The notes under the pieces are model-generated. The model worked only from the letters and a program-made list of their open reading frames with translations, was not told the DNA's origin and searched no databases. A stretch of DNA of 64,000 nucleotides from Morococcus cerebrosus (lineage in GTDB: Bacteria; Pseudomonadota; Gammaproteobacteria; Burkholderiales; Neisseriaceae): contig NZ_CP094242.1 of the NCBI RefSeq assembly GCF_022749515.1, positions 124,001 through 188,000 of the forward strand, in the 5' to 3' direction. Both the position numbers and the translations under genes were made by a program. This document shows, piece after piece, positions 36,018 through 47,156 of the stretch; positions within the stretch are counted from its first letter, which is position 1; every line of letters starts with the position of its first letter.

Positions 36018-37133
36018 ATGAAACTGTCGCGCTTCTCCTCCCTTGCCCTCGCCGCCGCATTGGCATTCGGCACTGCCGCCGTCCATGCCAAACCGGTTCA
36101 GCTTACCGATGTCAACGGCCGCAAAGTAACCGTCGACCTGCCCGCCAAACGCGTGGTTTTGGGTTTTTATTATCAAGACTACATGGCCATCGGCGGTAAA
36201 GACGCGCTGAATAATGTGGTCGGCTTCTCCAAAGCGGTTTGGGCCGACTGGGCGCCGCCGAGCTGGGCGGCATTCAGCAAAGCCGTGCCCAAGTTGAACC
36301 AGCTTGCCGACGTGGGCGAGGTGGAAGTCGGCACGTTCTCCGTTGAAAAAGTATTGGCATTGAAACCCGATTTGCTGATTTTGGCGGACTGGCAGTATAA
36401 GGCTTTGGGTTCAGACCTTGCCCGCATCAACAAAGCGGGCATTCCGATTGTGGTGTTGGACTACAACGCGCAAACGGTCGCCAAACACATCCAATCAACC
36501 AAACTCATCGGCACGCTGACCGGCCAGCAACAAAAGGCCGACAAGCTGGCGGCAGACTACAAACGCATCGCCGACACCATCCAAGCGCGCGTGAAAAAAG
36601 CCAATCTGCCCAAGCCTAAAGTGTATGTCGAGTTCGGCAACAAAGGCCCGGCGGAACACAGCGTAACCTTCGGCAAGAGTATGTGGGGGTCGATGGCGAC
36701 GCTGGTCGGCGGCAACAATATCGCCGCTTCTTCGGTCGAGTTCTACGGCCCGATCAATCCTGAAAAAGTCCTCGCCGCCAAACCCGACGTCATCGTGATT
36801 ACCGGCCGCGAAACCGAATTGAAGAAAAGCCCGACCGCCATGGTGATGGGCTGGGGCATTCCGAAAGCCGAAGCGGAAAAACGCTTGGCCGGTTTTGCCA
36901 AACGCGCCGGCTGGGCGAACCTGCCTGCGATTAAAAACAACCGCCTCTACGCCGCCTACCACGCCAACTCGCGCACGCTTTCCGACGGCGCATCGATTCA
37001 ATTTATGGCCAAAGCGATTTATCCGCAGTTGTTCAAAGACTTCAATCCTGAGAAAACGTATACCGACTTCTACCGCCAAAACCTGCCGGTCGTGCCGAAC
37101 GGTACGTTCTACCTGTATCCGAAAGGGCAGTAA
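36018..37133 (+). CDS. Periplasmic binding protein of an iron/siderophore-type ABC transporter (copy 1)
   Basis: The protein has 371 residues. A Sec signal peptide ends AAVHA (about residue 24), with no lipobox. The class III binding fold (PF01497) shows DVNGRKVTVDLPAKRVV, then LKPDLLILADWQ, and YVEFGNKGPAEHSVTFGKSMWGSM. GFYYQDYMAIGG and the C-terminal PNGTFYLYP are shared with the paralogue at 38925. It would deliver a ferric complex, heme or related chelate to the permease at 37808. AAAGGATTTTACTCT precedes ATG. Its 3' end is repeated in decayed form just downstream. Confidence 0.88.
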   Translation: MKLSRFSSLALAAALAFGTAAVHAKPVQLTDVNGRKVTVDLPAKRVVLGFYYQDYMAIGGKDALNNVVGFSKAVWADWAPPSWAAFSKAVPKLNQLADVGEVEVGTFSVEKVLALKPDLLILADWQYKALGSDLARINKAGIPIVVLDYNAQTVAKHIQSTKLIGTLTGQQQKADKLAADYKRIADTIQARVKKANLPKPKVYVEFGNKGPAEHSVTFGKSMWGSMATLVGGNNIAASSVEFYGPINPEKVLAAKPDVIVITGRETELKKSPTAMVMGWGIPKAEAEKRLAGFAKRAGWANLPAIKNNRLYAAYHANSRTLSDGASIQFMAKAIYPQLFKDFNPEKTYTDFYRQNLPVVPNGTFYLYPKGQ

Positions 37134-37545
37134 GGCGGGCTTCTGGGTTTCAGACGACCTTTTTATGCGGAAGCTCGTCTGAAAGCAGCATGGGTTTATA
37201 CAGAACCGTAGCATGGGCTTTGCCCACGGGTAATGTTTTCAGAAATGATGGCGAATGGTATGGGGTTTCCCTGTTTTCGTGGGCGAAGCCCACGCTACGA
37301 ATTCCTGTCGTGCCGAGTGGTAAGTTTTACCTGTATCCAAAAAGGCAATAAGGCTGGTTTGCAGGTTTCAGACGACCTTTTTATGCGAAAGGTCGTCTGA
37401 AAGCAGCGTGGGTTTTGTACAGAACCGTAGCGTGGGCTTTGCCCACGGGTAGCGTGCAGAAATGATGGTGAACGGTATGAGGGTTTCCATGTTTTCGCGG
37501 GCAAAGCCTACGCTACGACTTTCCGTCGTGCCGAGTGGGGAATGT
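37083..37545. repeat. Degenerate tandem duplication of the binding-protein gene 3' end plus spacer
   Basis: The last codons and spacer after the gene (GTCGTGCCGAACGGTACG, then tail codons, an uptake sequence and the GTGGGCTTTGCCCAC palindrome) recur. The second copy starts near 37317 and still spells a decayed VVPSGKFYLYP and stop. A third partial copy starts near 37525. Period about 208-228 bases. Palindromes lie near 37206, 37279, 37426 and 37497. Confidence 0.75.
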
Positions 37546-37567
37546 CAGGTGGGTTTGACTGTTGCGG

Positions 37568-37682
37568 CCCTCTCCCTAGCCCTCTCCCACGGGGAGAGGG
37601 GATCAGATAACTGAAGTCCGACCATTGTTTTGATTCCCTGCCATTTGTTCCCTCTCCCCGTGGGAGAGGGCTAGGGAGAGGG
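37568..37682. repeat. Inverted pair of CCCTCTCCC repeats
   Basis: A 33-base unit (CCCTCTCCCTAGCCCTCTCC... at 37568-37600) recurs inverted at 37650-37682, giving a large stem with about 50 bases between. Related single units lie near 40989, 50531 and 50611. This type of G/C-rich repeat occurs between genes in many proteobacteria. No gene lies between 37134 and 37807. Confidence 0.65.
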
Positions 37683-37807
37683 CAAAGCCGTTTTGGAACG
37701 CCGTTATCCCGATTTTCAAAAAAACCACCCTTCAAAACGGATACAGACAAAAGAGATTGTCGGGCATGGATGTCCGACCTTGTTCCTTAATTTCAAAGGC
37801 TTAAAAA

Positions 37808-38854
37808 ATGAATGATTCGGTTGTCGCCGAGATTGTGAAAAACCAGCGCAAGTTGGAAGGCAAGCGTTGGTTGATTGTTTTGATGTTTTTAATCATCGCA
37901 TCGGTCAGCTTCTTATTCGACATCGCCACCGGTCCGGCGATGACGGACACGCTGCCTGTCGGCGAAGTGGTCAATGTTTTGCTGGGCAAACCCGAAGTCG
38001 ATGAAATGAACCGCCTGATTGTGATGGATCTGCGCCTGCCGATTGCGGTGATGGCGCTGGTGGTCGGTGCGGCTTTGGGTGTCGGCGGAGCGGAGATTCA
38101 GACGTTGTTGAATAATCCGATGGCCAGCCCTTATACGCTGGGTTTGGCGGCGGCGGCGGGTTTGGGCGCGTCGGTGGTGATTGCGTTCGGCGGTTTCGGG
38201 CTGCCTGAAACGGTCGCCGTTCCCATCGGCGCGTTTGTGATGACCATGTTGGCTTCGGGCATCTTGTTTCTGTTTGCCTCGGCACGCCGCTTCAATTCGG
38301 CGATGCTGGTGTTGGTCGGGATTGCGCTGTTGTTTCTGTTTCAGTCGATTTTGTCGCTGATTCAATTTATCGCCGCGCCTGAGATTTCACAGCAGATTTT
38401 GTTTTGGCTGTTTGGCAGCCTGACCAAGGCGACTTGGGAGACTGTCGCGGTTACGGCGGCGGTTACGGCGGTGTGCGTGCTGCTGCTTTCACGCGATGTG
38501 TGGAAGCTGACCGCGCTGCGCTTGGGCGAAGAACGCGCCGTCGGGCTGGGCATCAATCTGCAACTTTTGCGCCTGAAAACGCTGGTGCTGGTGGCGGTGA
38601 TGACGGCGACGGCAATCAGTTTCGTCGGCGTAATCGGCTTTATCGGACTGGTCGCGCCGCATGTGGCGCGGATTCTGCTCGGTGAGGACCAACGCTTTTT
38701 CCTGCCCGGCGCGATGCTGACAGGGGCGGCGTTTTTATCGGTCGCCAGCGTGTTGTCCAAGGTGATTATCCCGGGTGCGCTGTTTCCGGTGGGGATTGTT
38801 ACCGCGTTTGTCGGCGTACCGTTTTTCTTTTGGATTGTATTGTCCAAGCGGTAA
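37808..38854 (+). CDS. FecCD-family ABC transporter permease
   Basis: The protein has 348 residues and about ten membrane helices (PF01032). Family motifs are RLPIAVMALVVGAALGVGGAEIQTLLNNPMASPYTLG, split here as LRLPIAVMALVVGAALGVGG then NNPMASPYTLGL, GSLTKATWETV, and the cytoplasmic coupling loop GFIGLVAPHVARILLGEDQR near 270-290. It transports iron chelates delivered by the binding proteins on either side. It is separated from the first binding-protein gene by a 674-base repeat region, so it may have its own promoter. Confidence 0.9.
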   Translation: MNDSVVAEIVKNQRKLEGKRWLIVLMFLIIASVSFLFDIATGPAMTDTLPVGEVVNVLLGKPEVDEMNRLIVMDLRLPIAVMALVVGAALGVGGAEIQTLLNNPMASPYTLGLAAAAGLGASVVIAFGGFGLPETVAVPIGAFVMTMLASGILFLFASARRFNSAMLVLVGIALLFLFQSILSLIQFIAAPEISQQILFWLFGSLTKATWETVAVTAAVTAVCVLLLSRDVWKLTALRLGEERAVGLGINLQLLRLKTLVLVAVMTATAISFVGVIGFIGLVAPHVARILLGEDQRFFLPGAMLTGAAFLSVASVLSKVIIPGALFPVGIVTAFVGVPFFFWIVLSKR

Positions 38855-38924
38855 GTTTTTTCGGACGGTCTTTTGTTGCGACGGGGTCGTCTGAAACTGT
38901 TTTTTTATTTTACAGAGAGAACCA

Positions 38925-40148
38925 ATGAAACCTATTTGCCGTATTTTAACCGCTGCCTTGTTCAGTCTTGCCGTGCAGGGTGTTTGTGCCGAAGTGAAAA
39001 CGCTTACCGACGTACGCGGGCGCGAAGTGCGGGTCGATGTGCCTGCCAAACGTGTGGTGCTGGGCTTTTATTATCCTGATTATATTGCCGTATCCGGTGT
39101 CGATAAATTTGACAATGTGGTCGGTATTTCGCGCGAATTTTGGGAGAAATTCAACTCCGGCAGTTGGTCGCTCTACCGCGCCAAAATCCCTTCGCTGCAA
39201 AACATCGGCGACATCGGCAATGTGAACGCCGGTACATTTTCGTTTGAGAAAACCTTGGCAATGAAACCCGATGTGGTGGTGTTGGCGGATTGGCAGTATG
39301 ACGTGTTGAAAGAAGAAATGCCGCGTTTCGAAAAAGCCGGCATTCCGGTGGTTGTGGTCGATTTCAATGCGCAAACGGTCGAACGCCATACCGCCAGTGC
39401 CAAACTTTTCGGCGAAATCGCCGGTACGCCGGAGCGTGCAGGGCAGATTGCCGGCGAATACGCCCAAGGCATAGCCGACATTCAAAAACGCGTGGCCGAA
39501 GCGGGCAAGCCCAAGCCGAAAATCTATATCGAGTTCGGAGACAAGGGTCCTGCCGAACATAGCTTTACTTTCGGCAAAAATATGTGGGGTGCGATTGCCG
39601 ATACAGTGGGCGGCGACAATATTGCCGCAGCCTTCATCAAAGACTGGGGGGCGATTAATCCCGAGCAGTTTCTTGCCGCCAAGCCCGACGTTGTGATTAT
39701 TTCCGGCACCGAAGCCGGACTGAAGCAGCCGGCGGCAATGGCGATGGGCATCGGCATCGAAGCCGCCGAAGCGCAAAAACGCTTACAGGGTTTTATCCGG
39801 CGTGCCGGTTGGGCGGAAATTCCCGCTGTCCGAAACGGCCGTGTGTTCGGCATTTACCATACTGCTTCGCGTTCGCTTTCCGATTTGGCATCCGCCCAAT
39901 TTATCGCCAAAGCGTTGTATCCCGAAGCCTTTGCCGATGTGAATCCGGAAGAGACCTACCGTGAATTCCACCGTAAATACCTGCCGGTCGAGCCGAAGGG
40001 TACTTTCTTTATCCGTTTGGGTTGCGACGGTTTGGAAGACTGCAACAAACAAGCGGCTGCCGACACTGTTGCGGCATCAGCCGAAACCGTCGCCGAACCG
40101 TCACTATGGCAACGTATTAAAAACTGGTTTGCCGCCCTCTTTGCTTAA
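38925..40148 (+). CDS. Periplasmic binding protein of an iron/siderophore-type ABC transporter (copy 2)
   Basis: The protein has 407 residues. It has a Sec signal peptide (about 1-22, ending GVCA), not a clear lipobox. It is an obvious paralogue of the protein at 36018: DVRGREVRVDVPAKRVVLGF, LADWQYDVL, YIEFGDKGPAEHSFTFGKNM. It differs by a C-terminal extension of about 40 residues, with two cysteines (GCDGLEDC), an Ala-rich stretch and a hydrophobic WQRIKNWFAALFA end that could touch a membrane or partner. Closely spaced after the permease and 12 bases before the ATPase gene. Confidence 0.87.
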   Translation: MKPICRILTAALFSLAVQGVCAEVKTLTDVRGREVRVDVPAKRVVLGFYYPDYIAVSGVDKFDNVVGISREFWEKFNSGSWSLYRAKIPSLQNIGDIGNVNAGTFSFEKTLAMKPDVVVLADWQYDVLKEEMPRFEKAGIPVVVVDFNAQTVERHTASAKLFGEIAGTPERAGQIAGEYAQGIADIQKRVAEAGKPKPKIYIEFGDKGPAEHSFTFGKNMWGAIADTVGGDNIAAAFIKDWGAINPEQFLAAKPDVVIISGTEAGLKQPAAMAMGIGIEAAEAQKRLQGFIRRAGWAEIPAVRNGRVFGIYHTASRSLSDLASAQFIAKALYPEAFADVNPEETYREFHRKYLPVEPKGTFFIRLGCDGLEDCNKQAAADTVAASAETVAEPSLWQRIKNWFAALFA

Positions 40149-40160
40149 AGGTCGTCCAAA

Positions 40161-40928
40161 ATGCTCCGACTGGAAAACGTACATATCCGACGCGGCGATT
40201 ATGTGGTCGCCGACAGTATCGATTTGACGCTGGAACAAGGCAAAGTCTATTCCGTGCTCGGCCCGAACGGTACGGGCAAATCCTCGCTGATGAAAACGAT
40301 TTTCGGCGAAGTGGCGCACAAAGGCACCATCCGCTACGGCGACGAAGCGTTGAGCAAAATCCACCTGCAAAGCTGGCGCAAACGCATAGGCTATATGCCG
40401 CAGGACACCGCCGCCGAAGCCTCGCTGACCGCACTGGAAGTCGTGTTGCTCGGCCGCATGGACGCGCTGCACATGCACGTCGGCGACGAACTGCTGCACG
40501 AAGCCGCAAGTATCATGGCGGAGCTAGGCATCGGCCATCTGGCGCACCGCGACGTCATGCGGCTTTCCGGCGGACAGCGGCAGCTCGTGATGTTTGCCCA
40601 AGTCATGCTGCGCCGTCCCGAAATCCTGATGCTGGACGAACCGGTCAGCGCGCTGGATATGCACCATCAGTTGAACCTCTTGGAGCGCGTGGTGCAATAC
40701 ACGCACGAACACAATCTGGTTACGCTGATGGTCTTGCACGATTTGAGCCTCGCCGCGCAATTTTCAGACGGCGTGATTCTGCTCGGCGAAGGCAAAGTAC
40801 AGGCGCAGGGCGCGCCGCAGGATGTGTTGCAGGCGGACATGATAGGCAGGCTGTACAAAGTGGACATCGAACTTTTATACGACAGCAAAGGCCTGCCCGT
40901 TATCCGCCCGATGCGGCAGAGTGCGTAA
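40161..40928 (+). CDS. ABC transporter ATPase, FecE/FhuC type
   Basis: The protein has 255 residues. Walker A GPNGTGKSS (about 34-42), Q-loop MPQDT, signature LSGGQRQ, Walker B ILMLDEP, D-loop SALD and H-loop VLHDLS are all intact. It energises the FecCD-type permease at 37808. It begins 12 bases after the second binding protein, so the two are one operon. Confidence 0.92.
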   Translation: MLRLENVHIRRGDYVVADSIDLTLEQGKVYSVLGPNGTGKSSLMKTIFGEVAHKGTIRYGDEALSKIHLQSWRKRIGYMPQDTAAEASLTALEVVLLGRMDALHMHVGDELLHEAASIMAELGIGHLAHRDVMRLSGGQRQLVMFAQVMLRRPEILMLDEPVSALDMHHQLNLLERVVQYTHEHNLVTLMVLHDLSLAAQFSDGVILLGEGKVQAQGAPQDVLQADMIGRLYKVDIELLYDSKGLPVIRPMRQSA

Positions 40929-44495: not shown

Positions 44496-44806
44496 TCCCC
44501 TTCTTTATGAATCATTTCAATTAATCCATCACCAAAACATCTCAATAAGGACAGATTAAATTGCGGCGTGCGGCAACACCAGCCGTGTTTACTATACTTC
44601 TTAACTAAAAACAAACATTCTTATCCTATTCTTATCTCATTCCAACGTTCTCCAAAACATCCGCTAATTCTCCTCTAACACTCCCAGCCTAGAATGGTGT
44701 TCAGAAAAAAGAAAAACAAGTCTCCTCACATAACGATAGTCTGCTCACACTGACACGGACGGAACATCATTTTCCCCACCATCGTTTTTCCCCTAAGGAG
44801 CGTATC

Positions 44807-45547
44807 ATGAAACTGAATCTGCAAAAAACCACCGCTGCTGTTTTGGCTGTTTTGTTCAGCGCAGGCGTATTTGCCGCCAACAATGCCTACAATCCATTTG
44901 ATTACAGTTACCAAAACCACAAATACGGCAAAAAATGGGGCAAACCCGCATCTGAAGCCGAAGGCGAAAAAGTGATGAAACACGCTGCCTACCGTTCGGG
45001 CGTGCACTACACCAACGTCAACCGCATGCCCGGCAATGTAGACCGCAACGGCGTGAAAACCGTACAGGTTAACGACGCATACACCCGTCAAAACCTCGGC
45101 CGCTATGCATTCAACACCATCAAGAGCGGCGGCTCTGAAGTGTACTACGGCGAGTGGGTCGGTAAAGAATACGCCAAAGGCACCAACCGCGGTGTTTTCT
45201 ACTCTGGCGACAAACGCGCTACCTCTATGCCGGTATCCGGTGTAGCCAACTACGCCGTCAAAGGTATCAACAACTACACCGGCAACAACCCGATGGTCGG
45301 TACTTTGCGCGCAGACTTCGGTCAACGCGTCTTGGCAGGTTCTATGAAAAACAACGCTGTACAGATGGACATCCATTCCCGCATCAAACCGTCCAGCGCA
45401 TCGTTTGAAGGCTACGCCCGCGCCAACGGCCACTTCGGTAAAACCGAAGGCCACTTCTTCGGTCACAACGCAAGCGCGCTGGCCGGTGTTGCCAAATTTA
45501 AAACCGACCGCAACTTGGATACGGCATTCGGCGGTGTGAAACGCTAA
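44807..45547 (+). CDS. Slam-dependent exported protein, hemophilin/TbpB-barrel type
   Basis: The protein has 246 residues. A Sec signal peptide (about 1-23, cut after SAGVFA) is present with no lipobox Cys. An N-terminal ligand-handling part (about 24-130) is rich in Tyr, Asn and Lys. The C-terminal half is built like the 8-stranded barrel of TbpB/HpuA/hemophilin cargo proteins: VSGVANYAVKGINNYTG, GTLRADFGQRVLAG, then KTEGHFFGHNASALAGVAKF and a terminal AFGGVKR. Such barrels are what Slam proteins recognise. The Slam gene follows directly. By analogy with hemophilins it may be a secreted heme scavenger, but the ligand is inferred. AAGGAGCGTATC precedes ATG. Confidence 0.8.
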   Translation: MKLNLQKTTAAVLAVLFSAGVFAANNAYNPFDYSYQNHKYGKKWGKPASEAEGEKVMKHAAYRSGVHYTNVNRMPGNVDRNGVKTVQVNDAYTRQNLGRYAFNTIKSGGSEVYYGEWVGKEYAKGTNRGVFYSGDKRATSMPVSGVANYAVKGINNYTGNNPMVGTLRADFGQRVLAGSMKNNAVQMDIHSRIKPSSASFEGYARANGHFGKTEGHFFGHNASALAGVAKFKTDRNLDTAFGGVKR

Positions 45548-45568
45548 AATCCGTAGTTAAGTAACATA

Positions 45569-45596
45569 AAGCCTGCTTCACGCAGGCTTTTTTAAA
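45569..45596 (+). terminator. Terminator or attenuator between cargo and Slam genes
   Basis: AAGCCTGC TTCAC GCAGGCTT followed by TTTTT. Read-through past it would give less Slam than cargo, a sensible ratio for a translocon and its substrate. Confidence 0.8.
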
Positions 45597-45655
45597 CAGC
45601 AGCCCGCCAACCTTCTCAAGGTCGTCTGAAACCCGCCGACCGGAAAGCCGACACC

Positions 45656-47095
45656 ATGTACAAACCGTCTGCCTGCCTTCTCCTGTTTCTCGCCGCCCCC
45701 GTCCTTGCCGCGCCCCGTTCTGACTTTTCAGACGACCGTACCGCGCAACGCCTGTGGCAAAACACCCGCCAAACCATGCAGGAACAGGAACAAAAAGTGC
45801 GCGAATACCGCCTCGACATTCCAGCCGAAAACATCGGGCAGACAGCCGAAACCGACCCCGAAGCCGACCAAGGCGAAGCCCTGTTTAACGCCGTCAACCG
45901 CAGCGACTGGCAAACCGTGCGCCCGCTGCTCGAGCGTTATACCCAGCAAACCGAATACGACCCCGACATCGCCCTCTTTGCTCGCGCCTCGCTCGCCCGC
46001 GGCGAAGGCAGGTGGAAAGCCGCCAAACAAGACTACGAAACCCTGCTGCAACGCCACCCCGACTTCACGCGCGGACGCCTCGATTACGCCCGCCTGCTCT
46101 TTGAAGGTCGTCTGAACCGCGAAGCCACTTCCGAATTTATGCGCCTGCAAAACGAAGACCTGCCCGAAGCCGTCAAAGAAAACATCGGACATTTCCGCGA
46201 CTCTCTAAACCAACGCCAAAGCTGGCAGGGCAGCCTTTCCGTCGGCGCCGTCCACAACAGCAACATCAACGAAGCCAGCGGCAAAGTGTGGTGTAAAACC
46301 GAAATCGACGGCGAATGCTGGGAAGAATTTTCCGGCGACCAGCCCATTTCCGCCAACGGCATCAAATACGAAGCCGCCGCCGTCCGCCGCTGGCAGATTA
46401 AAGGACACCACGGCATCGCCGCCCGCGCGCTCGGCTACGGCCGCTTCTACCGCGACCATAAAGACTTCAACGAACACACGCTCAACCTCAGCGCAGGCTA
46501 CCAGTTTGAAAACCACCGCCACACCTTCGCCCTCGCCCCGCTTGTCGAATGGAACGGCAGCGTCGGCAAAACCCTCAACCGTGCCTACGGCGTGCGCAGC
46601 GAGTGGAACCTCGACAAAGGCAGCTGGACGTGGAACACCGAAGCCGAGTGGAAACACCTCTCCTATTCCGACAAAACCCGCCTGCTCGACGGCAGCCTCT
46701 TCTTCGTTTACAACACCCTGTCCTACTTCCCGCGCAACGACCTCATGCTCTACGGCGGCATAGACTGGCAGCAGCGCAAAGCCCAAGAGCCGGTGGACAG
46801 CTACCGCCTCATCTCCGCACGGCTGGGCGCGGCAAAAATGTTTGAAGCCGGTTTCGACGCCTCCGCCTCCGCCACCTTCGGCATCCGCAGCCACCGCGCA
46901 GAAAACGCCGTCCTCGAACAACGCCGCCGCGACAAAGAACAGACCTACCGCCTCAGCATAGGCGCGGACCGCTGGAAATTTGCCGGCATGAAGCCCGTCC
47001 TCAGCTACAAACACCGCCGCGTCAAAGGCAACACCGACTGGCTGTACAGCTACAAGCAAAACGAAGTTGGTCTGTCGCTGGTGAAATCGTTCTAA
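45656..47095 (+). CDS. Slam outer-membrane translocon (surface lipoprotein assembly modulator, DUF560)
   Basis: The protein has 479 residues. A signal peptide (about 1-18, FLAAPVLA) is followed by a periplasmic TPR-like region (about 60-185, ALFARASLARGEGRWKAAKQDYETL) and a C-terminal barrel (about 190-479: WQGSLSVGAVHNSNINEASG, GYQFENHRHTFALAPLVEW, ending NEVGLSLVKSF). This is the Slam layout; Slams move specific barrel-containing cargo across the outer membrane (type XI secretion). The start at 45656 lies right after an uptake sequence. The cargo gene is immediately upstream on the same strand. Terminal Phe is typical of outer-membrane barrels. Confidence 0.9.
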   Translation: MYKPSACLLLFLAAPVLAAPRSDFSDDRTAQRLWQNTRQTMQEQEQKVREYRLDIPAENIGQTAETDPEADQGEALFNAVNRSDWQTVRPLLERYTQQTEYDPDIALFARASLARGEGRWKAAKQDYETLLQRHPDFTRGRLDYARLLFEGRLNREATSEFMRLQNEDLPEAVKENIGHFRDSLNQRQSWQGSLSVGAVHNSNINEASGKVWCKTEIDGECWEEFSGDQPISANGIKYEAAAVRRWQIKGHHGIAARALGYGRFYRDHKDFNEHTLNLSAGYQFENHRHTFALAPLVEWNGSVGKTLNRAYGVRSEWNLDKGSWTWNTEAEWKHLSYSDKTRLLDGSLFFVYNTLSYFPRNDLMLYGGIDWQQRKAQEPVDSYRLISARLGAAKMFEAGFDASASATFGIRSHRAENAVLEQRRRDKEQTYRLSIGADRWKFAGMKPVLSYKHRRVKGNTDWLYSYKQNEVGLSLVKSF

Positions 47096-47111: not shown

Positions 47112-47156
47112 ACAAAGGTCGTCTGAAATTCAGTTTTCAGACGACCTTTTTTCTTT
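47112..47156. terminator. Bidirectional uptake-sequence terminator
   Basis: AAAGGTCGTCTGAAATTC and its inverse followed by TTTTTTC lie between convergent Slam and DUF421 genes. Confidence 0.75.

Follow-up and report, generated by a model that had tools for sequence, protein, structure and literature searches.

An open reading frame of 246 amino acids (aa), at positions 44807–45547 of the plus strand in a 64-kb stretch of Morococcus cerebrosus DNA (the window), carries a signal peptide and a hemophilin fold and is followed by a gene for the outer-membrane protein Slam. The encoded protein is predicted from its sequence, Pfam, a structural model and fold searches to be a soluble Slam cargo. It belongs to a branch of proteins that show neither the axial heme histidine nor a linked hemophilin-type TonB receptor and whose genes follow a repeat resembling a PmrA box. 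With somewhat better than even probability, a hemophilin-fold secreted protein appears here to have moved from receptor-linked heme uptake to a stress regulon of the PmrA/QseB type, with a ligand that is probably non-canonical.

Soluble Slam cargo proteins are usually read as hemophores, and the Slam biology of Neisseria as iron piracy. A 2024 study in J Bacteriol reportedly deals with the prevalence of Slam-dependent hemophilins. Slam secretion of a soluble cargo is an ordinary idea; soluble cargo of Slam, or of the type XI secretion system (T11SS), the hemophilins, and their occurrence in Neisseria are already published (PMC8406197, PMC8560813, PMC12282271). Neither a hemophilin branch without receptor and heme histidine nor a link between a hemophilin and a PmrA/QseB-type promoter is found in the literature searched, as far as its excerpts go.

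The cargo has a signal peptide of the Sec/signal peptidase I type at residues 1–23 (44807–44875, plus strand) with a VFA|AN cleavage site placed by means of a simple rule. The N-terminal sequence is MKLNLQKTTAAVLAVLFSAGVFA|ANNAYN, GHFFGHNASALAGVAKF is found inside the chain, and the C-terminal end is AFGGVKR. There is no cysteine among the 246 residues, the lipobox cysteine of TbpB/fHbp-type lipoproteins included, and the protein therefore cannot be lipidated, unlike the neisserial surface lipoproteins HpuA, TbpB, and fHbp. An initial annotation of this DNA had described a 246-residue protein with an ordinary signal peptide and no lipobox, a Tyr/Asn-rich N-terminal half, and a C-terminal half with the TbpB-type barrel pattern. 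These descriptions are borne out, that of the N-terminal half being a fair one (15 Tyr among the 223 mature residues).

Pfam gives a match to HphA_C at residues 139–245 (75.6 bits, cut-off 31) and one to TbpB_B_D (35.1 bits, cut-off 26). The match to HphA_N, residues 76–120 against profile positions 56–101 of 110, is borderline at 22.3 bits with a cut-off of 22; two receptor-linked relatives, L044 and L045, score 68.3 and 26.6 bits. NCBIfam slam_lipo also matches (113.6 bits, cut-off 80) despite the absence of cysteine. The family is named 'Slam-dependent surface lipoprotein', and public records give homologues of the window cargo that name.

In the predicted structure residues 1–50 are of low confidence, strands are found at 84–134, and an eight-stranded barrel follows at 146–245. 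Hemophilins are the best solved-structure matches and nothing ranks above them in either fold search; that other families are missing from the results proves nothing. The cargo thus shows the hemophilin fold with its C-terminal eight-stranded barrel, as the structure prediction against hemophilin and TbpB proposed in the initial annotation was meant to probe, together with the features of soluble Slam/T11SS cargo, i.e. a signal peptide without lipobox, a C-terminal TbpB-type barrel, and an adjoining Slam gene. The designation hemophilin-like, from the same annotation, fits the fold but neither the axial heme ligand position, occupied here by R94, nor the surroundings, where a linked hemophilin-type TonB receptor is missing.

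Receptor-less and receptor-linked relatives

When 46 Neisseria genomes are searched at the protein level (E ≤ 1e-20), the cargo is found in 15 genomes and 24 places, which make up 22 loci; this set leaves out weaker HphA_C places. Approximately 18 kb were read around each locus (17 kb in the case of L039 and L009, and a contig of 5.4 kb for L008). Twelve loci, one per genome, form group A (the window, L008, L009, and L033–L041), with cargo sequences 55–100% identical to that of the window; loci of Neisseria sicca and Neisseria sp. HMSC077D05 carry cargo of 97% identity. The other ten (L042–L051) form group B, with 36–48% identity. Receptor-linked relatives of the group B type are also present in seven of the twelve group A genomes. 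L050, which has a 146-aa cargo frame and a 306-aa Slam frame, enters neither the residue counts nor the tree.

All ten group B loci display a c2-cluster TonB receptor of 943–1152 aa beside the cargo, upstream on the same strand in eight and divergent in two; three members were confirmed by Pfam. No c2-type receptor is found beside the cargo in the stretches read around the 12 group A loci. Eight of the ten group B loci have a Slam, which is short in one of them. L048 and L049 show a receptor and a hemophilin-type cargo, and no relative of Slam turned up in the 18 kb read there. In L045 (7730–9634) and, on the opposite strand, L046, two tandem soluble cargos are situated ahead of one Slam. The second of them has Tyr at the heme-ligand place (NDYSNLG vs NHSHLG/DHSHLG).

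Heme is bound through H43 and H106 in HphA and through a single His in Hpl (PMC8560813). In the alignments, HphA H106 and the Hpl His are found three residues ahead of the L in an LG motif (the offset in the H106 numbering is our own count), and R94 of the window cargo takes the H106 place. Among 17 group A proteins, consisting of the 12 loci and five database proteins, this column shows Arg in six, Gly in 11, and His in none, vs His in six of 11 group B proteins. Moreover, no His is found at 91, 93, or 96 in the window cargo or its five closest relatives. With the axial His replaced and none nearby, canonical heme binding by the window cargo is unlikely as judged from sequence; heme binding as such stays conceivable. 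The model of a group B cargo, L044, has a mean predicted confidence (pLDDT) of 70.7 with the N-terminal part mostly below 50; the two groups are accordingly not contrasted in the structure of the heme site. A Lys/Ala-rich N-terminal stretch similar to KAAKKAAKQAAK precedes the handle domain in the group A cargos P0011–P0013, P0015, P0016, and L041. Charge was considered as a separator of the two groups and dropped, cargos of both being basic.

The window's genome, of 2.57 Mb, carries four Slams. Its sole strong c2-type match precedes dnaG-rpoD, 0.4 Mb from the cargo (L099:6985–11160 = G000:C1:562984–567159), and is split into two frames; cargo and Slam are missing there. Three group B loci, L045, L047, and L051, retain receptor, cargo, and Slam at dnaG-rpoD, with DnaG and RpoD 99–100% identical. 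By this comparison the site in the window's genome is a decayed group B locus.

A tree was made of 19 Slams of these loci and the three others of the window's genome, L048 and L049 being left out where no Slam was found. The group A Slams and the two group B Slams with divergent receptors come together as a 97/98 group, next to which stand the remaining receptor-linked Slams. Group A is not one side of any branch (2 changes), and long branches are flagged; a single origin of the group A Slams is still compatible with the tree. The simplest history would be that a hemophilin operon lost its receptor, in one event or two.

The promoter repeat and a regulator pair

The element CTAATTCTCCTCTAACACTCCCAGCCTAGAAT (44664–44695, plus strand) is situated 111 nucleotides (nt) ahead of the cargo ATG. 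It consists of a PmrA-box-like direct repeat, CTAA-N7-CTAA, with an 11-bp period, followed by N11 and the −10-like hexamer TAGAAT. The repeat spans the −35 region, so that two half-sites at an 11-bp period lie over it as in a PmrA/BasR-type regulon. A sigma-70 consensus scan does not list the element because its −35 departs from the consensus. All 12 group A cargo promoters have the repeat core CTAA-N7-[C/A]TAA-N11-TANAAT, and in fuller form CTAATTYT-NNN-[CA]TAA[CGT]-N10-TANAAT, with fixed spacing. In 19 group B cargo and receptor upstream stretches nothing closer than five mismatches to the pattern is found.

The pattern was derived from the group A cargo promoters themselves. In the 46 genomes it gives 35 matches with at most one mismatch, vs two for a reversed control, and these consist of the 12 cargo sites and 23 others. 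Eighteen of the latter were inspected: five are found before a beta-carbonic anhydrase gene, in five genomes, eight before a PepSY-type periplasmic protein gene, one before an OmpR-family response regulator gene, and four before nothing fitting. The names rest on Pfam for one of the five carbonic anhydrases and four of the eight PepSY-type proteins and on likeness for the rest. Two of the five remaining sites are upstream of the BasR-like response regulator described below. The flanks, 902 kb counted strand-wise, hold only two non-cargo matches.

The more general form CTAA-N7-CTAA-N11-TANNNT has four exact matches in the window's genome, vs one for the control. They precede the cargo, a carbonic anhydrase gene followed by a SulP gene, a response regulator gene (1932164), and a receptor gene (1769670). 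The beta-carbonic anhydrase and SulP transporter genes with the cargo's promoter element are found at L100:3566–6036 (G000:C1:605565–608035). The receptor at 1769670 was considered as a co-regulated cognate receptor and dropped, since the site is absent before all five of the seven related receptors that were checked.

The response regulator gene belongs to a BasR/PmrA-QseB-like regulator pair (L134:3220–5457 = G000:C1:1932219–1934456). The response regulator is closest to BasR, its best match in PDB, and scores below the equivalog cut-offs of both PmrA (236 bits, cut-off 330) and QseB (211 bits, cut-off 345). The kinase is QseC/PmrB-like and has an aspartate run, probably outside the membrane in the periplasmic sensor part by its inferred placement. 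The sensor BqsS belongs to this PmrA/QseB-type class. In every one of the 12 group A genomes, a repeat of the cargo-promoter spacing precedes the response regulator gene or the genes leading up to it. In the 11 genomes other than the window's the second half-site is [CA]TAA and the spacer sequences have diverged. The repeat is directly before the response regulator in five of them (54–74 nt) and 708–1403 nt away with one or more genes between in six, for which a common operon is inferred.

The resemblance to the PmrA/BasR box (PMC3973317) lies in the head-to-tail half-sites, the 11-bp period, and a site at the response regulator's own promoter. The half-sites differ, i.e. CTAAT/CTAA in group A vs CTTAAT/CCTAAG in the PmrA box (PMC3973317). 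The system is also unlike PmrA/BasR in the sub-cut-off scores of its response regulator, and unlike the known regulon in that its members (carbonic anhydrase, PepSY-type protein, Slam cargo) are predicted only.

A single Fur consensus was used. In the 12 group A promoters its best matches are 9–10 of 14, which is the level of shuffled sequence, and Fur control of the group A cargo was rejected on this ground. In group B the L049 receptor and the L043 cargo each give 12 of 14 (equalled in 2/200 and 4/200 shuffles), with most others at shuffle level. An Rfam scan shows nothing but tRNA upstream of the cargo.

Weighing the readings

In the reading favored here, a move from receptor-linked heme uptake to a stress regulon, the cargo would cross the inner membrane by Sec and be cut by signal peptidase I. 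The C-terminal eight-stranded barrel would guide it through Slam, and for want of a lipid anchor it would be freed into the medium. Given the PmrA-box-like promoter, the cargo would be transcribed under the chromosomal BasR/PmrA-QseB-type two-component system, which would also drive its own genes and the carbonic anhydrase gene. Outside the cell the protein may bind or sequester its ligand when metal, acid, or envelope stress prevails and not act as a canonical iron-starvation hemophore; the ligand could be heme held differently, or something else. Expression in the group A branch seems to be set off by a metal/stress sensor and not by iron hunger.

The cargo differs from HphA/HsmA of Acinetobacter baumannii and Hpl of Haemophilus haemolyticus by the missing linked receptor, by Arg94 in place of the axial His, by the borderline N-terminal domain match, and by the PmrA-box-like promoter. 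As it is receptor-less and histidine-less and has a promoter of the PmrA/QseB type, it is not filed here as a hemophore. A wider proposal is put forward tentatively and at less than even probability: a hemophilin branch of commensal Neisseria, without receptor and heme His and wired to a PmrA/QseB-type sensor, would be a soluble Slam-secreted protein of new function, made together with carbonic anhydrase and PepSY-type proteins. If this holds, export through Slam would extend to secreted proteins with no part in iron starvation. The carbonic anhydrase made alongside would stand for pH/CO2 homeostasis. A single promoter element with its regulator pair, a cargo, and a Slam make a compact test system, with the receptor-linked relatives as controls.

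Several observations weigh against the favored reading. Five of the 11 group B proteins also show no His at the exact place (three have one at most two residues off and two have Tyr), and by these alignments the heme site is therefore loose in the whole family. A His within three residues of the canonical place (91, 93, or 96) occurs in nine of the 17 group A proteins. Y68, which is kept in all 17 and is Leu or Phe in group B, is a possible other heme ligand, as is H38 of the window's six-member close group, situated in the N-terminal tail, which is poorly modelled. Heme binders have this same fold, and a residue other than the canonical His could hold heme. As to receptors, the window's genome gives 20 matches to the TonB-receptor barrel, none inside the window, and any of them is a possible partner; one, the siderophore-type receptor at 1769670, has a motif-like site ahead of it that its five checked relatives do not show. 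A TonB receptor of another kind is found within approximately 3 kb in two of the 12 group A loci, behind the Slam in L035 and on the opposite strand in L040. These are the only TonB receptors among non-Slam group A neighbors of at least 500 aa, each of which was scanned or clusters with a scanned frame. As to control, the 12 group A promoters share common descent, and regulator and cargo would be linked through the shared motif only. Fur control of group B is not established, the one consensus being clear at L049 and L043 only.

The cargo may instead be an ordinary hemophore, binding heme via another residue (a Tyr, or else a His in the N-terminal tail), scavenging it from host heme proteins, and passing it to an unlinked TonB receptor. 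This appears rather unlikely. None of the 17 group A proteins has the canonical His and none of the 12 loci the c2-type receptor, while the sole strong c2-type match in the window's genome is broken, 0.4 Mb off, and stands without cargo and Slam. Furthermore, there is no Fur-box excess in the group A promoters, and all 12 are of the PmrA type.

A protein that sequesters heme or metal without an uptake partner, as a weapon that starves heme-dependent neighbors or as a shield that detoxifies excess heme or metal, is an unlikely explanation. It has a precedent in the H. haemolyticus hemophilin, which works against non-typeable H. influenzae (PMC10964412), and it fits the soluble release, the absence of a linked receptor, and control of the PmrA/QseB type, a class with iron sensors; BqsS is a sensor of Fe2+ (PMC12666569). 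Against it, no heme ligand residue is identified.

Slightly less credible still is that the upstream repeat is a conserved core promoter and no regulator site, the cargo being constitutive or Fur-controlled. The motif does include a −10-like hexamer, and because the pattern was derived from promoters that share descent, the 12 of 12 are not 12 independent events. However, 14 of the 18 inspected non-cargo sites precede carbonic anhydrase (5), PepSY-type (8), and OmpR-family response regulator (1) genes, the repeat recurs upstream of the response regulator in 12 of 12 genomes with diverged spacers, and the reversed control gives two matches vs 35.

The Slam gene and its surroundings

The gene directly after the cargo, named a DUF560 Slam in the initial annotation, is confirmed as such. 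The 479-aa open reading frame (45656–47095, plus strand) encodes a Slam (SlipAM/DUF560, T11SS outer-membrane protein) with an N-terminal TPR domain and a C-terminal barrel. Pfam finds both Slam domains, SlipAM at 196.9 bits over positions 1–288 of 288 and TPR_Slam at 67.8 bits. Cargo and Slam adjoin in 12 of 12 group A loci, amid several different flanks, and thus the pair is not by chance. Release of the cargo in the medium through Slam is inferred by analogy with characterised homologues.

It is very unlikely that the cargo remains in the periplasm or takes another way out while the neighboring Slam serves other cargo: a terminator parts the two genes and the window's genome has three other Slams, but the pair adjoins in all 12 loci and the C-terminal barrel is the part common to known Slam cargo.

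HrpBC, of T11SS subcluster 1B of Xenorhabdus, likewise consists of a Slam-type protein and a single-barrel soluble cargo, and its secretion has been reconstituted in E. coli (PMC8406197). Genes for TonB and a receptor are part of the hrp locus as well (PMC8406197), unlike the locus in the window. The gonococcal NGO0554/NGO0555 are similar by description, being a neighboring Slam and a predicted cargo called an hrpC homologue (PMC12918729, PMC8406197). Loss of fur derepresses NGO0554, which carries two Fur boxes (PMC12918729, PMC8406197); none is recognisable at the window cargo.

The cargo and Slam genes are separated by 108 nt. An intrinsic terminator-like hairpin (45568–45593, plus strand), AAAGCCTGC-TTCAC-GCAGGCTTT with a 9-bp stem leading into T's, was found there by a hairpin-plus-T script, and 0 of 200 shuffles are equally good. 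Of the 12 intergenic stretches of group A, 11 yield a hairpin with T's by this script, with sequences that partly differ among relatives; the miss is L040, where the T's pair into the stem, and the pick in L038 is no clear terminator. Two results weigh against a terminator. The 108 nt as a whole fold unremarkably (z = −1.31, 18 of 200 shuffles equally good), and a terminator scan reports the hairpin on the minus strand only, because it counts the T's into the stem. Thus the terminator suggested earlier between the genes stands as a local hairpin with T's and not in the folding of the whole stretch.

The sequence AGGTCGTCTGAA (45619–45630, plus strand), which we take to be the DNA uptake sequence, was found by sequence match in the same gap and has 60 copies in the window on both strands. 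Together with the 97% identical cargo of N. sicca, these copies place the DNA with mouth-type Neisseria of the sicca/mucosa kind. At the 3′ side of the Slam gene the terminator scan shows a terminator-like inverted repeat built from two uptake sequences (47114–47149, plus strand). Two FecB-type binding proteins, a FecCD permease, and an ATPase, forming an ATP-binding cassette importer of the iron/heme/cobalamin type, are encoded at 36018–40925 of the window, 4–9 kb upstream of the cargo.
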